Source of the DNA: Paucibacter sp. Y2R2-4 | GTDB lineage: Bacteria > Pseudomonadota > Gammaproteobacteria > Burkholderiales > Burkholderiaceae_C | Reading direction: 5' to 3' | Length of the DNA: 64,000 nt | NCBI RefSeq assembly: GCF_025717535.1 | Contig: NZ_JAJIRO010000003.1 | Coordinates: 682,001 to 746,000, forward strand | Shown: positions 2,057 through 61,515 of the stretch, in pieces | How the letters are laid out: the number at the start of each line of letters is the position of its first letter | How positions within the stretch are numbered: the stretch's first letter is position 1 | Program-made: the position numbers and the translations under genes | Notes under the pieces: model-generated | Told to the model about the DNA's origin: nothing | Database searches by the model: none | The model's input: only the letters and a program-made list of their open reading frames with translations

Positions 2057-3358
2057 TCAAGGCTTTGTCGCCGCTTCCTGCGCCTGTGCCAGGTGCTTGC
2101 GGTAGCTGTCCAGCACCCTGGGGCTCCGCCCGGCGGCTTCGCCCAAGCTCAGGGCGCGGCTGAATTCGGCGCGTGCCTCGGTGTGGCGACCGAGCTTCAT
2201 CAGCACTTCGCCGTGGCTGTCGGCGGCATTGTCTGATTTGTCGTAAAGCCGGGCATTGGCGCTCAAAACCCAAGCCGCCAGTTGCACGCGCGGCGTCACT
2301 TGGCCATTGCCAAGGATGGCATAGCCGGCATTGTTGACCTCAGCTTCACTGAGGCCCGGCGCGCGAATGGCGAGGTCCACGGCAGCTTGCGGATCGGTTG
2401 CGCTGGCCGCGGCCTGCAAATCTTGACTGAGCTTGGCGCGCGCGGCTTCGATGGCGCGGCGCTGGGCTTGCTCTTGTGCCAGTCGAATCACCTGGTCGAC
2501 GGCGGCGACCACCAACTGGGGCTCATCAAACTGGATGTGGTGGCCGCTGACCGGCGTCAGCACATGGGCGCCATTGCTGAATTGGCTGAAGAACTCGGTG
2601 TGCAACTGGCGCCAGGCGGCCATACCGGCGGGCGTGTGCAGGAGCACTTCGGGCTTGGCATAGCGCTTGGTGGAGGTCAGCACGACCGCCGGAACGTCGG
2701 GCAGCTGTGCCGTGGTCTTGTCGATGGCCGGCAGCCTGCCTGCGTCCATGATGCTTTGGATGTAGCGCAAATCAGCGCGGAACTTTTCCGGAGCGCCTTT
2801 TTCGAGTTGCGCCTGCTCGGCCGCCAAGCGCGGCGCATCCAGCGGTTTGAGCACTTGGTCGTAGCGCTCATGCGCGGGATCGACAAATACAAGGCCGGCG
2901 ATTTGCTCGGGATGGCGGCTGGCAAAGTCGCGGATCAAGAACGCGCCATAGGAATGACCCACCAGCACATAGGGCGGCGGCAACTGGGCGGCTAGCAACA
3001 AGGCCGAAAGGTCGCGGCCACTTTGCTGCAAGCTGACCGGGGCCGGGCTGGCGTCACTCTGGCCATAGCCGGCTCGCGAATAGACCAAGACTTTGGCGCG
3101 CGGAGCCAATTGCGGTGCCACCCGGCGCCAGGCGCTCAGGTCCATGCTGAAGCCCGACTCAAAGACCACCGTGGCTGCGCCTTGGCCCATGCGAATGGCG
3201 TGCAGTTTGCGGCCGCCAATGTCGACCATCTCTTCGTTCGGCGCAGCGGGCGCTTGAGCGAGAGCGGCGACGCTCAGGCTGCTGAGCAGCAGCGCCGCGA
3301 TGCTGCGGTTCAGCACTTTGTTCAAGGCGCTTTGCGGCCAGATCGATGGTGAGTTCAT
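2057..3358 (-). CDS. Secreted alpha/beta hydrolase with C-terminal helical (TPR-like) extension
   Basis: Predicted exported alpha/beta-fold hydrolase of 433 residues. A signal peptide covers about 1-35 (cleavage near ALAQA). The nucleophile elbow GHSYG places Ser at about 136, and the catalytic His is in SGHHIQFDEP near 273-274. The core ends near residue 295. The remaining 140 residues are helical and contain a tetratricopeptide-like segment (GEVLMKLGRHTEARAEFSRA), uncommon for simple hydrolases. The start is the ATG just before the signal peptide; a longer in-frame extension has no signal-peptide character. The substrate is unknown. It is single-gene and convergent with the PEP-CTERM gene. 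Confidence 0.85.
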   Translation of the reverse strand: MNSPSIWPQSALNKVLNRSIAALLLSSLSVAALAQAPAAPNEEMVDIGGRKLHAIRMGQGAATVVFESGFSMDLSAWRRVAPQLAPRAKVLVYSRAGYGQSDASPAPVSLQQSGRDLSALLLAAQLPPPYVLVGHSYGAFLIRDFASRHPEQIAGLVFVDPAHERYDQVLKPLDAPRLAAEQAQLEKGAPEKFRADLRYIQSIMDAGRLPAIDKTTAQLPDVPAVVLTSTKRYAKPEVLLHTPAGMAAWRQLHTEFFSQFSNGAHVLTPVSGHHIQFDEPQLVVAAVDQVIRLAQEQAQRRAIEAARAKLSQDLQAAASATDPQAAVDLAIRAPGLSEAEVNNAGYAILGNGQVTPRVQLAAWVLSANARLYDKSDNAADSHGEVLMKLGRHTEARAEFSRALSLGEAAGRSPRVLDSYRKHLAQAQEAATKP

Positions 3359-3614
3359 GGAAGGCGAGTCGAGCGGAGCGGGTTGGACAACAAGAGTGTG
3401 TGACTCTAGGTGGCCCTCCGTTCGCTGGCCTGCTGAATGCGCCAAAGCGGCGCTGCGCAGGGATAGACGGTCAAAAAGCTGGAACAGGCCGACGTGCAAA
3501 AACACAAGCTCGGGCTTGTTCGCGAACGCACAGACGCCTGCAGGGCCAGCAGCGACGCTGCGAGCAGCGCACAAGCCTCCTCTGGCTTGCGCTCACACCC
3601 GAAAGAGGCTCCTC

Positions 3615-3974
3615 ATGACTCACTTCCGATCCGTCCCGCAACTCTTCCCTTGCGCATTGGCCGTGGCTGTTGCGCTGACTTTCGCTGCTTGCAGCAAAGC
3701 ACCGGAGCCCAGCGTGGCATCACCGCCCGATATGGCTGCGACCGGCGCAGGCCCGGTTCAAGTTTCAGACCTTGCTGTCACCGAGCATGTGAAGACTGCC
3801 TTGCAGAACGACGAGGTGCTCAAGGGTTTTGACATCCAGGTCGTGACGAACAAGGGCGATGTGCGCTTGATCGGGGTCTTGAACACCCAGGCTCAGATTG
3901 ATGAAGCCCTGCGTATTGCGCGGGCGGCGGAAGGGGCTCACAGCATTCACGATGAGCTGAGTGTGAAGCCATAG
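3615..3974 (+). CDS. BON-domain lipoprotein
   Basis: Small envelope lipoprotein of 119 residues. It has a signal peptide with lipobox TFAAC (Cys about 27), a short linker, and one BON domain at about 52-118 (VKTALQNDEVLKGFDIQVVTNKGDVRLIG split over several strands). BON domains (OsmY/HyperOSM type) are thought to bind phospholipid or other envelope surfaces and are often stress related. Several in-frame upstream starts exist; this ATG is chosen because it begins the lipoprotein signal peptide. It is convergent with the DUF3149 gene. Confidence 0.87.
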   Translation: MTHFRSVPQLFPCALAVAVALTFAACSKAPEPSVASPPDMAATGAGPVQVSDLAVTEHVKTALQNDEVLKGFDIQVVTNKGDVRLIGVLNTQAQIDEALRIARAAEGAHSIHDELSVKP

Positions 3975-4028
3975 GGTGAGAGGGGCGGCTCCTTGCGACC
4001 GCTCTTGAGCGGCGTGGGCGTCTTGGGC

Positions 4029-57586: not shown

Positions 57587-57955
57587 TGCTGGAGTTTGGA
57601 GCCAGGACTTAATGCAGTCGCCCTCACTTTGTACTGCTTGACCTCGCTTCGACTTGAGGTGCCTGGCATTGCCGCCAACAGCGTTCACCGGGCTGATCAG
57701 GCGTTGAACATGAGGCGCCAAGGAGTTGGACTGCTTCCTCTTGGCGAATGGCATGGCAAAACATCCGCCATGCCAACATTTCGTCGCGCCCCAGCCGACT
57801 TCGTCACAAAGCCCACTCCCAAGCCTGCCGGCTCAGAAACAATGAGGTACCGTGCGCTTCAAGCCTTTGGAGTCTCACGGTGATTTGGGTCGCAGGGCTG
57901 TGGCAGCGCGACTTCTCTTCTTCCTCTTGGCTGCTGCTGGCAGCTCAACGCGCGG
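57587..57955. other. Gene-free region before the LytS-type kinase
   Basis: 369 bases with no supportable gene. It holds an inverted repeat TGGCATGGC (57749-57757) / GCCATGCCA (57767-57775), nine-base spacer, which could be a weak terminator or a binding site. Composition (mixed codon-like ORFs on both strands, none with motifs) may mark a decayed or acquired sequence. No promoter for the kinase could be fixed. Confidence 0.5.
57749..57775. repeat. Inverted repeat in the gene-free region
   Basis: Nine-base perfect arms with a nine-base spacer (TGGCATGGC...GCCATGCCA). No U-tract follows. Confidence 0.5.
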
Positions 57956-59059
57956 ATGCGTCAAGCCTTTTTCTCTATCTTCAACCGGCGGGTGTTCGCC
58001 GCGGTGATGCTGATCAGCCTGCTGATGGCGCTGAGCCGCGCCTTGAGCTGGATGCCGCGCGGCGACTCAGCGATGCAGGCCTGGTTCAAGGCGGTGCTGG
58101 GCCTGTCGGGTCTGGCGCTCTTGCCGGGCGGTTTGATGCTGCTGGGCGCGGCCACGGCCGAAGCTTGCCTGGCTGGGTGGCGCCGGGCCCATCGCAGCAG
58201 TGCGCGGGCGGAGTGGGTGTTTCGCATTGCCTGGGTGGCCTTGGGCGTGGCCCTGGCGCTGCTCTTGCGCTTTGCCTGGATACAGTTCCGTCAGCCAGAC
58301 TCGATCCTGTACTGGGGCTTCTTTGTGACGCGCTGGGCCATGTACAGCTTGCTGGGCAGCTTGGCTTATGCGGTGCTCGTATGGCTGGCGGCAGAGCGTG
58401 ACTTGCGGGAGCGACTCAGCCAGGCCCAGGCGCAAAGCCAGGAGCTGCGCACCCGCCAGATGGAGGCGCAGTTGGCGGCGCTGAACGCGCAAATCGAGCC
58501 GCACTTTTTGTTCAACACTTTGGCGACCACGCGCCGCCTGTATGCCAGTACGCCCGACCGCGGCCGCGACATGCTGGGCCATCTGATCGCCTATTTGCGG
58601 GCGACCTTGCCGGCGCTGCGCGAGCCCTGGTCCAGCCTCGGGCAGGAGCTGGACCTGCTGCGCAACTATCTGGCGATTCTGCAAATGCGCATGGGCGAGC
58701 GCCTGCGTTTTGAGATCAAGGCCGACCCGAGCTTGCTGAGCTTGCGCTTGCCCCCTTTGATCTTGGCCACTTTGGTGGAGAACGCCATCAAGCATGGCTT
58801 GGGGCCTCTGAGCGAAGGCGGGCGCATCGAGATTGTGGCCAGGCGCGAAAGCACGGGCCCGCAAGCCGAGACCCTCCTGCTGGAGGTGCGCGACGATGGC
58901 GCCGGCTTTGTCGGCAGCAGCGGCAGCGGCGTCGGTTTGGCCAATACCCGCGCCCGCTTGCTGGCGTACTTTGGCCCGCAGGCTCGATTGGAGTTGGAGA
59001 CGCTGCAGCCGCGTGGCGTGCTGGCGCGCATCGTGCTGCCGGGGGAGCTGGCGCAATGA
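57956..59059 (+). CDS. LytS/AlgZ-type sensor histidine kinase
   Basis: A 367-residue integral-membrane kinase of the LytS (His_kinase, PF06580) family. About four transmembrane helices occupy 13-145, then a coiled linker, the phospho-acceptor IEPHFLFNTLA (His183) and an HATPase with NAIKHGL and DDGAGF, GVGLANTRARL. All kinase motifs are intact. It overlaps the next gene by ATGA and is probably the partner of the LytTR regulator two genes downstream. There is no visible ribosome-binding site. Confidence 0.92.
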   Translation: MRQAFFSIFNRRVFAAVMLISLLMALSRALSWMPRGDSAMQAWFKAVLGLSGLALLPGGLMLLGAATAEACLAGWRRAHRSSARAEWVFRIAWVALGVALALLLRFAWIQFRQPDSILYWGFFVTRWAMYSLLGSLAYAVLVWLAAERDLRERLSQAQAQSQELRTRQMEAQLAALNAQIEPHFLFNTLATTRRLYASTPDRGRDMLGHLIAYLRATLPALREPWSSLGQELDLLRNYLAILQMRMGERLRFEIKADPSLLSLRLPPLILATLVENAIKHGLGPLSEGGRIEIVARRESTGPQAETLLLEVRDDGAGFVGSSGSGVGLANTRARLLAYFGPQARLELETLQPRGVLARIVLPGELAQ

Positions 59060-59799
59060 CGTTTGTTGAGAACAGGCCCCGCCGCCTCTTGTGGCTCTGC
59101 ACTCATGTCTGGCGCAGCTGGAAGTCGCTGCGCGGCGGCGAGTTGCTGTGCGCCTTGGCGGTGGCGCTCTACCTGAGTGTCGAGAGCCTCGGGCCCTTGC
59201 TGGACTTTGAGCCCGAGCCCCAGTCTTGGACCTATCTGGCGTTGAGCATGGGTCAGCTCTGCATCCAGGCGCTGGTGATTCTGCTCTGCTGGTTGCCGGC
59301 GGACCGCAGCGCGTCAAACCACGCCCGACGTGGCCTGCGATTGTTGGCGGCGACCGGCCTCGGCGCGCTGGGCTCCGCACTGCTGCTGGGCTTGCTGATG
59401 CCGCCGCTCTTGTCTTGGTTGACGGACCCGCAGCTGCTGGCGGCGGCCTGCCGGGTCTGTGCCGTGCCCGACTTGATTCGCCCCAGCTGGTCGCATGGCC
59501 TGGGCGTGGCTTTGAATGCCTGGGTGGCGGGTGGCTTGGTCGTGGCGGCTTATGAGATGCACCAGCGCCGCCGCCGCAGCGCCCAGGCTCTGCAACACTT
59601 GCAAGAAGAACAAAGCCGCTATGCCCGCGATGCCGTGGCCGCCAGTCTGGCCGCGAAGAAAGCGCAGATGGAGCCGCAGGTTTTGTTCGAGGCTTTGCTG
59701 GCGATCGAGTCGGCTTATGCCCGCGGCGACCCGGATGCGGCCTCGCAGATGGATGGCTTGATCGCACAGCTGAGAGCGGCCATGGGCCGCCGGCCTTGA
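59056..59799 (+). CDS. Truncated, His-less LytS-like membrane protein (pseudo-kinase)
   Basis: A 247-residue membrane protein resembling the upstream kinase but without its catalytic parts. Four helices (about 30-50, 58-80, 96-121, 147-167) and a coiled linker precede QMEPQVLFEALLA (201-213 region). This aligns with the kinase site IEPHFLFNTLA, but the His is replaced by Gln (208) and the Asn-Thr by Glu-Ala. The protein stops at LIAQLRAAMGRRP, exactly where the kinase continues into its ATPase domain. The regulator gene follows at once, with no room for a lost tail, so it is a complete short gene. A role as a non-catalytic partner of the kinase is inferred. Confidence 0.8.
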   Translation: MTFVENRPRRLLWLCTHVWRSWKSLRGGELLCALAVALYLSVESLGPLLDFEPEPQSWTYLALSMGQLCIQALVILLCWLPADRSASNHARRGLRLLAATGLGALGSALLLGLLMPPLLSWLTDPQLLAAACRVCAVPDLIRPSWSHGLGVALNAWVAGGLVVAAYEMHQRRRRSAQALQHLQEEQSRYARDAVAASLAAKKAQMEPQVLFEALLAIESAYARGDPDAASQMDGLIAQLRAAMGRRP

Positions 59800-59835: not shown

Positions 59836-60648
59836 ATGAGCAGAGTCGTGACGGCAGTGATTGCCGAAGATGAAGAAACCCTCAGGCAGGAGCTGATCGA
59901 GGCCCTGGCTCAGGTCTGGCCCGAGTTGTCCATCGTGGCCGAGGCCAGTGATGGCATCGCGGCCTTGCGCGCCGTTGCCGAACATCAGCCGGATGTGGTC
60001 TTCCTGGACATTCAGATGCCGGGTGCGACAGGCCTGGAGGTGGCGCGTCACCTGGGCGGGCCAGCTGCAGCCGCGCTGGGCGGGGCGGCGCGCTCCAGCC
60101 ATATCGTGTTTGTGACGGCCTATGACCAATTTGCGCTGGAGGCCTTTGATGCGGGCGCGGTGGACTATTTGCTCAAGCCCTTGTCCATGCCGCGACTGTT
60201 CACCACCGTCAGCCGCCTCAAGCAAAGGTTGCACGAGGCGCCGGCTGACTTGTCGGGCGTCCTGGCGCAACTGGCGCAGCGATCCGGCGGCGTTGCAGAG
60301 GCGTCGAGTCCGCCAGCGCGCGCCCCCCTGCGTTGGATCAATGTCTCGGTGGGGCAGACCCTGCGCCTCTTGACGGTGGATGAGATCTTGTACTTTCAGT
60401 CCGATACCAAGTACACCCGCGTCGTCACCCGCGATGCCGAGGCCCTGATCCGCAAGCCGCTGAAAGAACTGGTGGAGGAGCTGGACCCGCACCAGTTCTG
60501 GCAGATCCATCGCAGCACCTTGGTCAATGTGGCGGCCATTGCTGGCGCGACACGCGATTTCCGCGGCCGCCTGCAACTCAAGCTCAAAGACCGCAACGAG
60601 TCCTTGTTGGTGGCTGAAAGCTACACCCATCGCTTTAAAGAAATGTGA
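59836..60648 (+). CDS. LytTR-family response regulator
   Basis: A 270-residue regulator: receiver domain (Asp58 in FLDIQMPG, acidic AEDEE at 10-14, Lys in LKPLS) and a C-terminal LytTR DNA-binding domain (about 165-268) with ILYFQSDTKYTRVV, FWQIHRSTLVNV and a final SYTHRFKEM. Similar to AlgR/LytR-type regulators. It follows the kinase and pseudo-kinase and completes a three-gene module. The DNA target is unknown. Confidence 0.93.
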   Translation: MSRVVTAVIAEDEETLRQELIEALAQVWPELSIVAEASDGIAALRAVAEHQPDVVFLDIQMPGATGLEVARHLGGPAAAALGGAARSSHIVFVTAYDQFALEAFDAGAVDYLLKPLSMPRLFTTVSRLKQRLHEAPADLSGVLAQLAQRSGGVAEASSPPARAPLRWINVSVGQTLRLLTVDEILYFQSDTKYTRVVTRDAEALIRKPLKELVEELDPHQFWQIHRSTLVNVAAIAGATRDFRGRLQLKLKDRNESLLVAESYTHRFKEM

Positions 60649-60723: not shown

Positions 60724-61515
60724 ATGAAGACGGCTCAGCTGCCCCATCTGCTGCGGAATTTGCTTTTGGCGACGGTGCCTTTGGTGCTTGGCCTGAGCGC
60801 GGCCAGCGTGGGCGCGCAGCAAAAGACGCTGGAGTTGGTGCGCGGCGACGACGACTACCCGCCGTATGAAATGGTGCTCAAGGGCAAGCCCGCGGGCCTG
60901 CATGTGGAAATGGTCGAGGCCGCGGCGCAAAGCCTCGGGATGAAAGTCCACTGGCGCAGCCTGCCGTGGAAGCGCGCGCTGCTGATGGTGGAAACGGGCC
61001 AGGCCGATGCGGTGACCTACATCTCGCGCACGCCGGAGCGCGAGGCTTGGGCCGTGTTCGTGGAGGGCAATCAGCTGTCCACCGCGGAGGTTCGTTTCAT
61101 TGCTCGCAAAGACGAGGCCGCGCGCATGCTGTTCAACGGCGATGTGACAACCTTTTTGGCCCAGCACAGTCTGGTGGCCGTGCGTGGTTTTCAGTTCGGT
61201 CAGGTCGAGATTGACCGGGCCAAGCGCATCGAAGCCAGCTCCATGGACGACTTGGTGCGTCGCTTGCTCGCGGGGCACGCCAGCGTGGCTGCGGTGAATT
61301 GGATGGACTTCAATACCGTCTACCAAGGCCGGCCGGAGTTCGCCAGCATCAGCTCGCTGCAGCCGCCGATTGCCAGTTCGCGAAACTACGTCGCGTTTTC
61401 AAGCGCACGGGGTCATTCGGCCTTGGCACAGCGCTTTGCCGATGCTTTGACGCGTTACCGGCAAAGCAAGGCCTATGCGCAGCTGATGAAAAAGTACCAG
61501 CTGCCCATGCCCTGA
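60724..61515 (+). CDS. Periplasmic solute-binding protein, SBP_bac_3-like
   Basis: A 263-residue exported protein. Signal peptide to about residue 35 (VGAQQ), then ELVRGDDDYPPYEMVLKGKPAGLHVEMVEAAAQSLG, typical of the amino-acid-binding family, and C-terminal YRQSKAYAQLMKKYQLP. No transporter genes adjacent. It has GAGGAAA upstream and stands 75 bases after the LytTR gene on the same strand; it may be a sensor input for that module or a solitary binding protein. Confidence 0.87.
   Translation: MKTAQLPHLLRNLLLATVPLVLGLSAASVGAQQKTLELVRGDDDYPPYEMVLKGKPAGLHVEMVEAAAQSLGMKVHWRSLPWKRALLMVETGQADAVTYISRTPEREAWAVFVEGNQLSTAEVRFIARKDEAARMLFNGDVTTFLAQHSLVAVRGFQFGQVEIDRAKRIEASSMDDLVRRLLAGHASVAAVNWMDFNTVYQGRPEFASISSLQPPIASSRNYVAFSSARGHSALAQRFADALTRYRQSKAYAQLMKKYQLPMP

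Follow-up and report, generated by a model that had tools for sequence, protein, structure and literature searches.

Histidine kinases typically act as homodimers, and it is already known that dead histidine kinases can control live ones. The closest functional precedent for the locus described here is the FasB-FasC-FasA system of group A Streptococcus, which likewise combines two kinase-like genes with one regulator; FasB and FasC interact in two-hybrid assays while no homodimers are formed, FasC without its kinase domain works, and the regulator FasA belongs to a ComE-like family (PMC12675982). FasC has been proposed to be a pseudokinase, and it retains His246 and needs it; in the published model the phosphate is placed on FasC, with FasB not ruled out (PMC12675982). 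In Caulobacter, the kinase-like protein DivL controls CckA and needs neither its acceptor residue nor its ATPase domain (PMC9491836). In the RetS-GacS pair from Pseudomonas, one kinase controls the other through mixed oligomers (PMC12675982 and PMC9491836), and RetS and GacS additionally homodimerise (PMC12675982). A ChrS pseudokinase that lost its ATPase domain by frameshift still alters the output of the paralogous kinase, as is proposed below for gene B of this locus; however, the ChrS protein is laboratory-evolved and kept its His, and its truncated form gave no significant heterodimer in two-hybrid assays (PMC9491836). BtsS/BtsR and YpdA/YpdB consist of the same kinds of kinase and regulator as genes A and R of this locus, but in the text consulted they comprise a kinase and a regulator and no pseudokinase subunit (PMC5936718, PMC5552118). 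Overlapping triads of kinase, pseudokinase, and LytTR regulator, in which the His is lost and then the ATPase domain is missing, were not found described in the open-licence PMC literature searched.

The window, which is the whole stretch of 64,000 nucleotides that was analysed, contains three genes designated A, B, and R. The features of the locus are as follows.

57778-57807, forward strand: putative LytTR-type tandem site, ATTTCGTCGC at 57778-57787 and ACTTCGTCAC at 57798-57807 (alignment and matrix scan; predicted binding)
57956-59059, forward strand: A, a LytS-type sensor histidine kinase of 367 amino acids (PF06580 and HATPase_c)
59056-59059, forward strand: overlap of the A stop and the B start, ATGA (sequence; same junction type in relatives)
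59056-59799, forward strand: B, a predicted LytS-like pseudokinase of 247 amino acids (ORF call, profile scan, orthologue residues, AlphaFold2 model)
59143-59553, forward strand: membrane part of B, with hydropathy peaks at residues 30-48, 61-79, 96-114, and 148-166 (hydropathy and model helices)
59449-59460, forward strand: CxxC of B (CRVC, residues 132-135) in the loop that joins helices 3 and 4 and is predicted to be periplasmic (topology by eye from charge and hydropathy)
59632-59784, forward strand: DHp-like H-box region of B, residues 193-243 (A-B alignment and orthologue alignment)
59677-59679, forward strand: Gln208 of B at the His position, opposite His183 of A (58502-58504)
59836-60648, forward strand: R, a LytTR response regulator of 270 amino acids (PF00072 and PF04397; phospho-acceptor Asp intact)

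A has four hydropathy peaks ahead of its H-box, the phospho-acceptor His183, and Pfam matches to His_kinase (PF06580, E 1.1e-20) and HATPase_c (E 1.7e-06). R has both a receiver with the conserved Asp (E 7.1e-20) and a LytTR domain (E 2e-24), and its best NCBIfam match is BtsR, at 132.6 bits and under the cut-off of 246. The G+C content of B by codon position (0.67/0.51/0.82) is near the values of A and R, so its coding signal resembles that of its neighbours. A solute-binding protein gene (SBP_bac_3) lies downstream of R at 60724-61515, while no gene of this type was seen directly behind R in ten relatives' loci inspected by eye.

An earlier note had described B as a LytS-like gene between a LytS kinase and its LytTR regulator, and the ORFs and coordinates agree with that description. 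None of the three features expected of a LytS kinase is present in the window protein: the score against PF06580 is 14.6 bits over residues 197-243, below the gathering cut-off of 25.2, there is no H-box His, and the Pfam scan found no HATPase_c domain that could carry N, G1, and G2 boxes. BLASTP of A against B aligns the linker and H-box with 41% identity over 73 columns (E 3e-07), with the remaining aligned stretches at E 0.088 or worse, and it is in this alignment that the claimed replacement of the acceptor His by Gln is seen. The protein was also said to end where the ATPase domain would begin, and in the AlphaFold2 model of the short B (mean pLDDT 84.5) the chain indeed stops past the second DHp-like helix; Foldseek with this model returned nothing useful, with a best E of 1.4. 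The proposed ATGA coupling to A and the position of the regulator downstream were both recovered, yet B and R do not overlap and are 36 bases apart, a gap that leaves no space for an ATPase remnant between them.

Orthologues of A, B, and R were found in an identical set of 24 of 299 family genomes, representing 14 of 141 genera, as judged from three genome lists matched by eye, with cut-offs placed at visible score gaps, part of the candidates per genome scored, and genomes that are not independent of each other. The cut-offs were above 250 bits for A (next best 199) and above 330 bits for R (next best 285), while B was required to match across the whole protein, with genome G175 counted from two pieces. 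Some match to B at E 0.001 occurs in 133 of the 299 genomes, but beyond the 24 these are weak matches to the H-box end. Within the window's genus, 6 of 18 genomes have A and these six are also the ones with B, and one genome from another family (G687) also has the trio. The 29 loci compared here are those of the 24 family genomes, four more from the genus (G001, G003, G008, and G010), and G687. The three-gene order that the earlier note had proposed to look for in relatives is constant: all 29 loci read A-B-R, with B adjoining R and the B start overlapping the A stop by four bases (ATGA, GTGA, or TTGA). An intact kinase, a dead kinase homologue, and a LytTR-type regulator are adjacent, as would be expected of a FasBCA-like system, and the ComE-like family of FasA is presumably LytTR-type as well. 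DivL has sensor domains and a genome context unlike those of B, and RetS and GacS are not known to be an overlapping co-encoded pair.

Outside the family, a profile of 16 full-length Bs searched against 399 genomes of the order, a few of them in the family, gave a full-length match only in G687, the other listed non-family matches being partial or to the kinase region. Other B profiles searched against the order and the class (330 and 303 genomes) led to 32 retained loci, 30 of them non-family, where 0 of 32 LytS ORFs is His-less; these searches were samples, with scoring of at most four to six candidates from each genome and inspection of the retained loci. No AlgZ/AlgR-hemC context was seen by eye across ten loci, and 25 clusters of conserved neighbours, many of them antisense frames, include no member from the window's genome. 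In G175 (L154 / L065), B is frameshifted while A and R are intact, in a draft assembly where an error is possible. In G050 (L151, 11448-11963), a phosphatase-like gene overlaps the end of R (PF22741 PTP-NADK, scanned in the G050 copy), and similar ORFs lie about 3.2-3.7 kb past the A start in eight genomes.

The residues expected of a working kinase and regulator are retained in A and R and largely replaced in B. At all 29 loci A has the His and the tested residues of the N, G1, and G2 boxes, with the exception of one G1 position that is Asn, Asp, or Thr, and R has the acidic residue, Asp, Thr, and Lys at all 29. In B, counted on 28 loci with the frameshifted G175 excluded, the His site is Gln in 22, Ala in 3, Glu in 2, Arg in 1, and His in none, and the Asn four residues past it is Asp or Glu in 27. 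FasC needs its His (PMC12675982), whereas here only A has one, and FasC and B are likened by description. Full-length Bs of 347-394 amino acids are encoded in 21 loci. All 21 have other residues in place of the N-box Asn, the Asp and first glycine of G1, and the two glycines of G2, but the column of the second G1 glycine is still Gly in 19, so the ATP site is not wholly erased. The earlier note had named two observations that would make B a decaying copy, an intact kinase at this position in relatives and a premature stop in this strain only. Neither was borne out. Relatives do encode a longer protein, but the His is present in 0 of 28 and the N-box Asn in 0 of 21, and the short form is common to seven genomes.

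When four relatives of B were scanned with PF06580, the three full-length proteins passed (39.7, 31.7, and 28.0), while the short B from G164 was unmatched. The model of a full-length B (pLDDT 84.8, pTM 0.57) keeps a kinase-like fold. Its Foldseek matches, which include many ordinary histidine kinases' kind of fold, number DesK, DivL (4q20), ChpT, and RetS from its complex with GacS (7n0e) among them; these four have E-values of 1e-5 to 1e-4 and TM-scores of 0.25-0.34 over the whole query, and ordinary kinases were matched as well. Mean pairwise identity among full-length Bs is 0.73 in the H-box helix, 0.63 in DHp helix 2, 0.49 in the ATPase part, and 0.39 in the membrane part; that conservation peaks in the H-box helix although its His is gone points to a helical contact, with either A or R. 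In 17 pairs selected by hand, NG86 dN/dS ranged over 0.11-0.61 in B, 0.06-0.54 in A, and 0.02-0.29 in R, with B above A in 12 of the 17 and R under both in 16. Judged by these ratios, B is under purifying selection.

The suggestion that B copies the membrane part of the kinase upstream does not hold, as the mean identity of A and B from the same genome is only 0.19 there, compared with 0.32 in the linker and DHp region and 0.25 in the ATPase part (21 full-length-B loci). In a tree of 65 LytS proteins, 27 Bs form one clade apart from the As with a UFBoot of 76, or 95 for the 25 that remain without the two from G124. This may reflect a single origin of B, at low support and with attraction among fast-evolving sequences as a possible cause. 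A His-bearing B from G099 is nested among the His-less Bs. The seven short Bs (231-249 amino acids), which end past the DHp-like helices, also form one clade, which includes the window's genus and G164 and has a support of 0.999 on A and R and 1.0 on B; the ATPase part was therefore most simply lost once, atop an already dead kinase. A CxxC in the loop past helix 3 is shared by all 7 short Bs and absent from the 22 others, and since the seven are one clade this counts as one event and not as seven. Among the short Bs the H-box helix is 0.67 identical versus 0.55 for the membrane part.

Similar gene sets occur elsewhere in these genomes. Among 20 LytTR-regulator neighbourhoods, hand-picked and non-random so that the proportion is not a frequency, 11 have a His-less LytS ahead of the regulator and 7 have a single His-bearing LytS, while the other two are the class I triad of G221 again and the G099 locus, in which B bears His and lacks the ATP boxes. 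A LytS with the His and N-box lies upstream of B in 10 of the 11, overlapping it by four bases in 8 and by ten bases in 2; the G2 pattern matches five of these ten paralogous As, and the other five have Thr in place of Asn. At least two triads each are present in G024, G127, G100, and G221. On the reverse strand of L189 (G124) the order is A1-B1-A2-B2-R, each gene is joined to the next by an ATGA overlap (four in all), and the His site is occupied by Val or Met, so the kinase and pseudokinase are present twice as a pair. The residues at the His site of paralogous Bs are Val, Met, Leu, and Asp. The B-like LytS of G099 (L238, 756-1853; L214 is the same place) keeps the His (EPHLLF) without the ATP-box patterns, and it is the only B examined that retains the phosphate-receiving His expected of a FasBCA-like system. 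In L225 (G212, 2776-4023), a His-less B is followed by a LytTR regulator, but no LytS gene is seen ahead of B, where the gene appears by eye to be zinc-dependent dehydrogenase-like. His-less proteins account for 2 of 33 LytS ORFs in 12 neighbouring-LytS stretches, both from G124, and a scan of 188 loci found no His-less LytS beyond the known triads. The window's genus also has runs of three or four LytS genes (L177, L178, and L179), all of them His-bearing (QPHFLF).

LytTR regulators recognise tandem repeats of the type seen upstream of A. The window has two imperfect copies of TTTCGTCGC in direct orientation, repeating at a 20-bp period, 149-178 bases upstream of A. A matrix built from five of the six genus loci and tested on 29 upstream stretches scored above all 40 block shuffles in 13 of 24 other loci at a spacing of 20, and likewise in 13 of 24, a slightly different set, at spacings of 20-22; among the 29 stretches the tandem site is absent in G010, G164, G069, and G687, among others. 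The window's site is the sole zero-mismatch match of the degenerate pattern in its genome. Over 14 genomes the pattern had 52 matches versus 40 for a reversed control and matched the operon in 8; five of the matches are without mismatch, at the operon in G000, G127, and G221 and at a BAAT-type gene in G003 and G009. A tandem TTCGTCGC site, possibly a shared LytTR box, stands ahead of this BAAT/acyl-CoA thioesterase-like gene (L279, 1501-1528, and L302-L310) whether the triad is present or absent. It scores 14-15 of 16 in three triad-less genomes and 10 of 16 in the window's genome, so the tandem site is not specific to R. A wider R regulon acting through the tandem site was dropped on account of the 52 matches versus 40 in the control and of the BAAT-type site in genomes without the triad. 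R may still regulate itself through the predicted tandem site ahead of its own operon.

Taken over the 29 loci, the probable explanation, one that we favour without regarding it as secure, is that B serves a three-component LytS system as its dedicated pseudokinase subunit, pairing with A and tuning it. The earlier note had taken B for a non-catalytic gene that is maintained together with the kinase, and this is well supported by co-occurrence in 24 of 299 genomes, overlap in 29 of 29 loci, dN/dS below 1 in 17 of 17 pairs, and the A-B-A-B-R arrangement. The sequences show co-inheritance, overlapping genes, intact A and R, a dead B, and selection on B; that B pairs with A and tunes it is inferred. 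B is more likely to be a functioning partner in regulation than a gene in decay. Contact between A and B would be made by their membrane bundles and their DHp-like helices, producing a heterodimer or a mixed oligomer in which only His183 of A would be phosphorylated, by the ATPase domain of A itself. B would be a second sensory membrane input that sets the balance of kinase and phosphatase activity of A toward R, and the CxxC in the predicted periplasmic loop hints at an input linked to thiols or a metal. The ATPase fold of B would first have been kept as an inert scaffold; its loss would have followed, most simply as a single event in an ancestor shared by the genus loci and G164. Some observations count against A as the partner. 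A short B might not pair, given that truncated ChrS gave no significant heterodimer in two-hybrid assays (PMC9491836). L225 suggests that B may function without an adjacent A, the conservation of the H-box helix would fit binding to R too, dN/dS is higher in B than in A in most pairs, and B of G175 is frameshifted.

It is unlikely that B acts on R instead, as a membrane homodimer whose DHp-like bundle docks R and holds or releases it. The H-box helix of a kinase also touches the receiver, so docking would be consistent with this helix being the most conserved stretch of full-length B despite the lost His, and L225, where a paralogous B and R stand with no A beside them, and a B beside R at every locus point the same way. 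However, co-occurrence is as tight for A and B as for B and R, it is A that B overlaps at every locus, and both Bs of A-B-A-B-R come after an A. The Asn four residues past the His is important for phosphatase activity in other kinases, and its near-complete replacement by acidic residues in B, together with a His site that is chemically unconstrained in orthologues and paralogues, makes it improbable that B still has a role in phosphate chemistry by way of another residue, either as an unorthodox acceptor or as an R phosphatase, despite the paralogous B of G099 having the FasC configuration of His without ATP boxes. The short Bs of the genus could be membrane thiol or metal proteins that merely share the operon and lie outside signalling, as a CxxC confined to them would allow, but this is very improbable with the H-box helix more conserved than the membrane part and the operon order unchanged. 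Even with catalytic motifs gone, seven loci without the ATPase domain, and the G175 frameshift, B as a decaying duplicate of A is effectively ruled out by conservation (His-less in 14 genera and one other-family genome), selection (dN/dS below 1), and divergence (distant from A, separate in the tree, and with no ATPase remnant fitting the gap before R).

If B is a pseudokinase subunit pairing with A, a broader proposal can be made, which is offered tentatively and may well prove wrong: the LytS kinases of this Burkholderiales family may include an obligate heteromeric receptor class, in which an ancient pseudokinase lineage was co-duplicated with its kinase, giving each genome several triads. 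The grades would run from His kept with dead ATP boxes, through His lost, to deletion of the ATPase domain, and the resulting pairs would be asymmetric and singly phosphorylatable, with two different sensor membranes. Some short genes annotated as "histidine kinase" could be real subunits, and a conserved pair of kinase and dead kinase with graded loss would make the contribution of a pseudokinase subunit directly testable.
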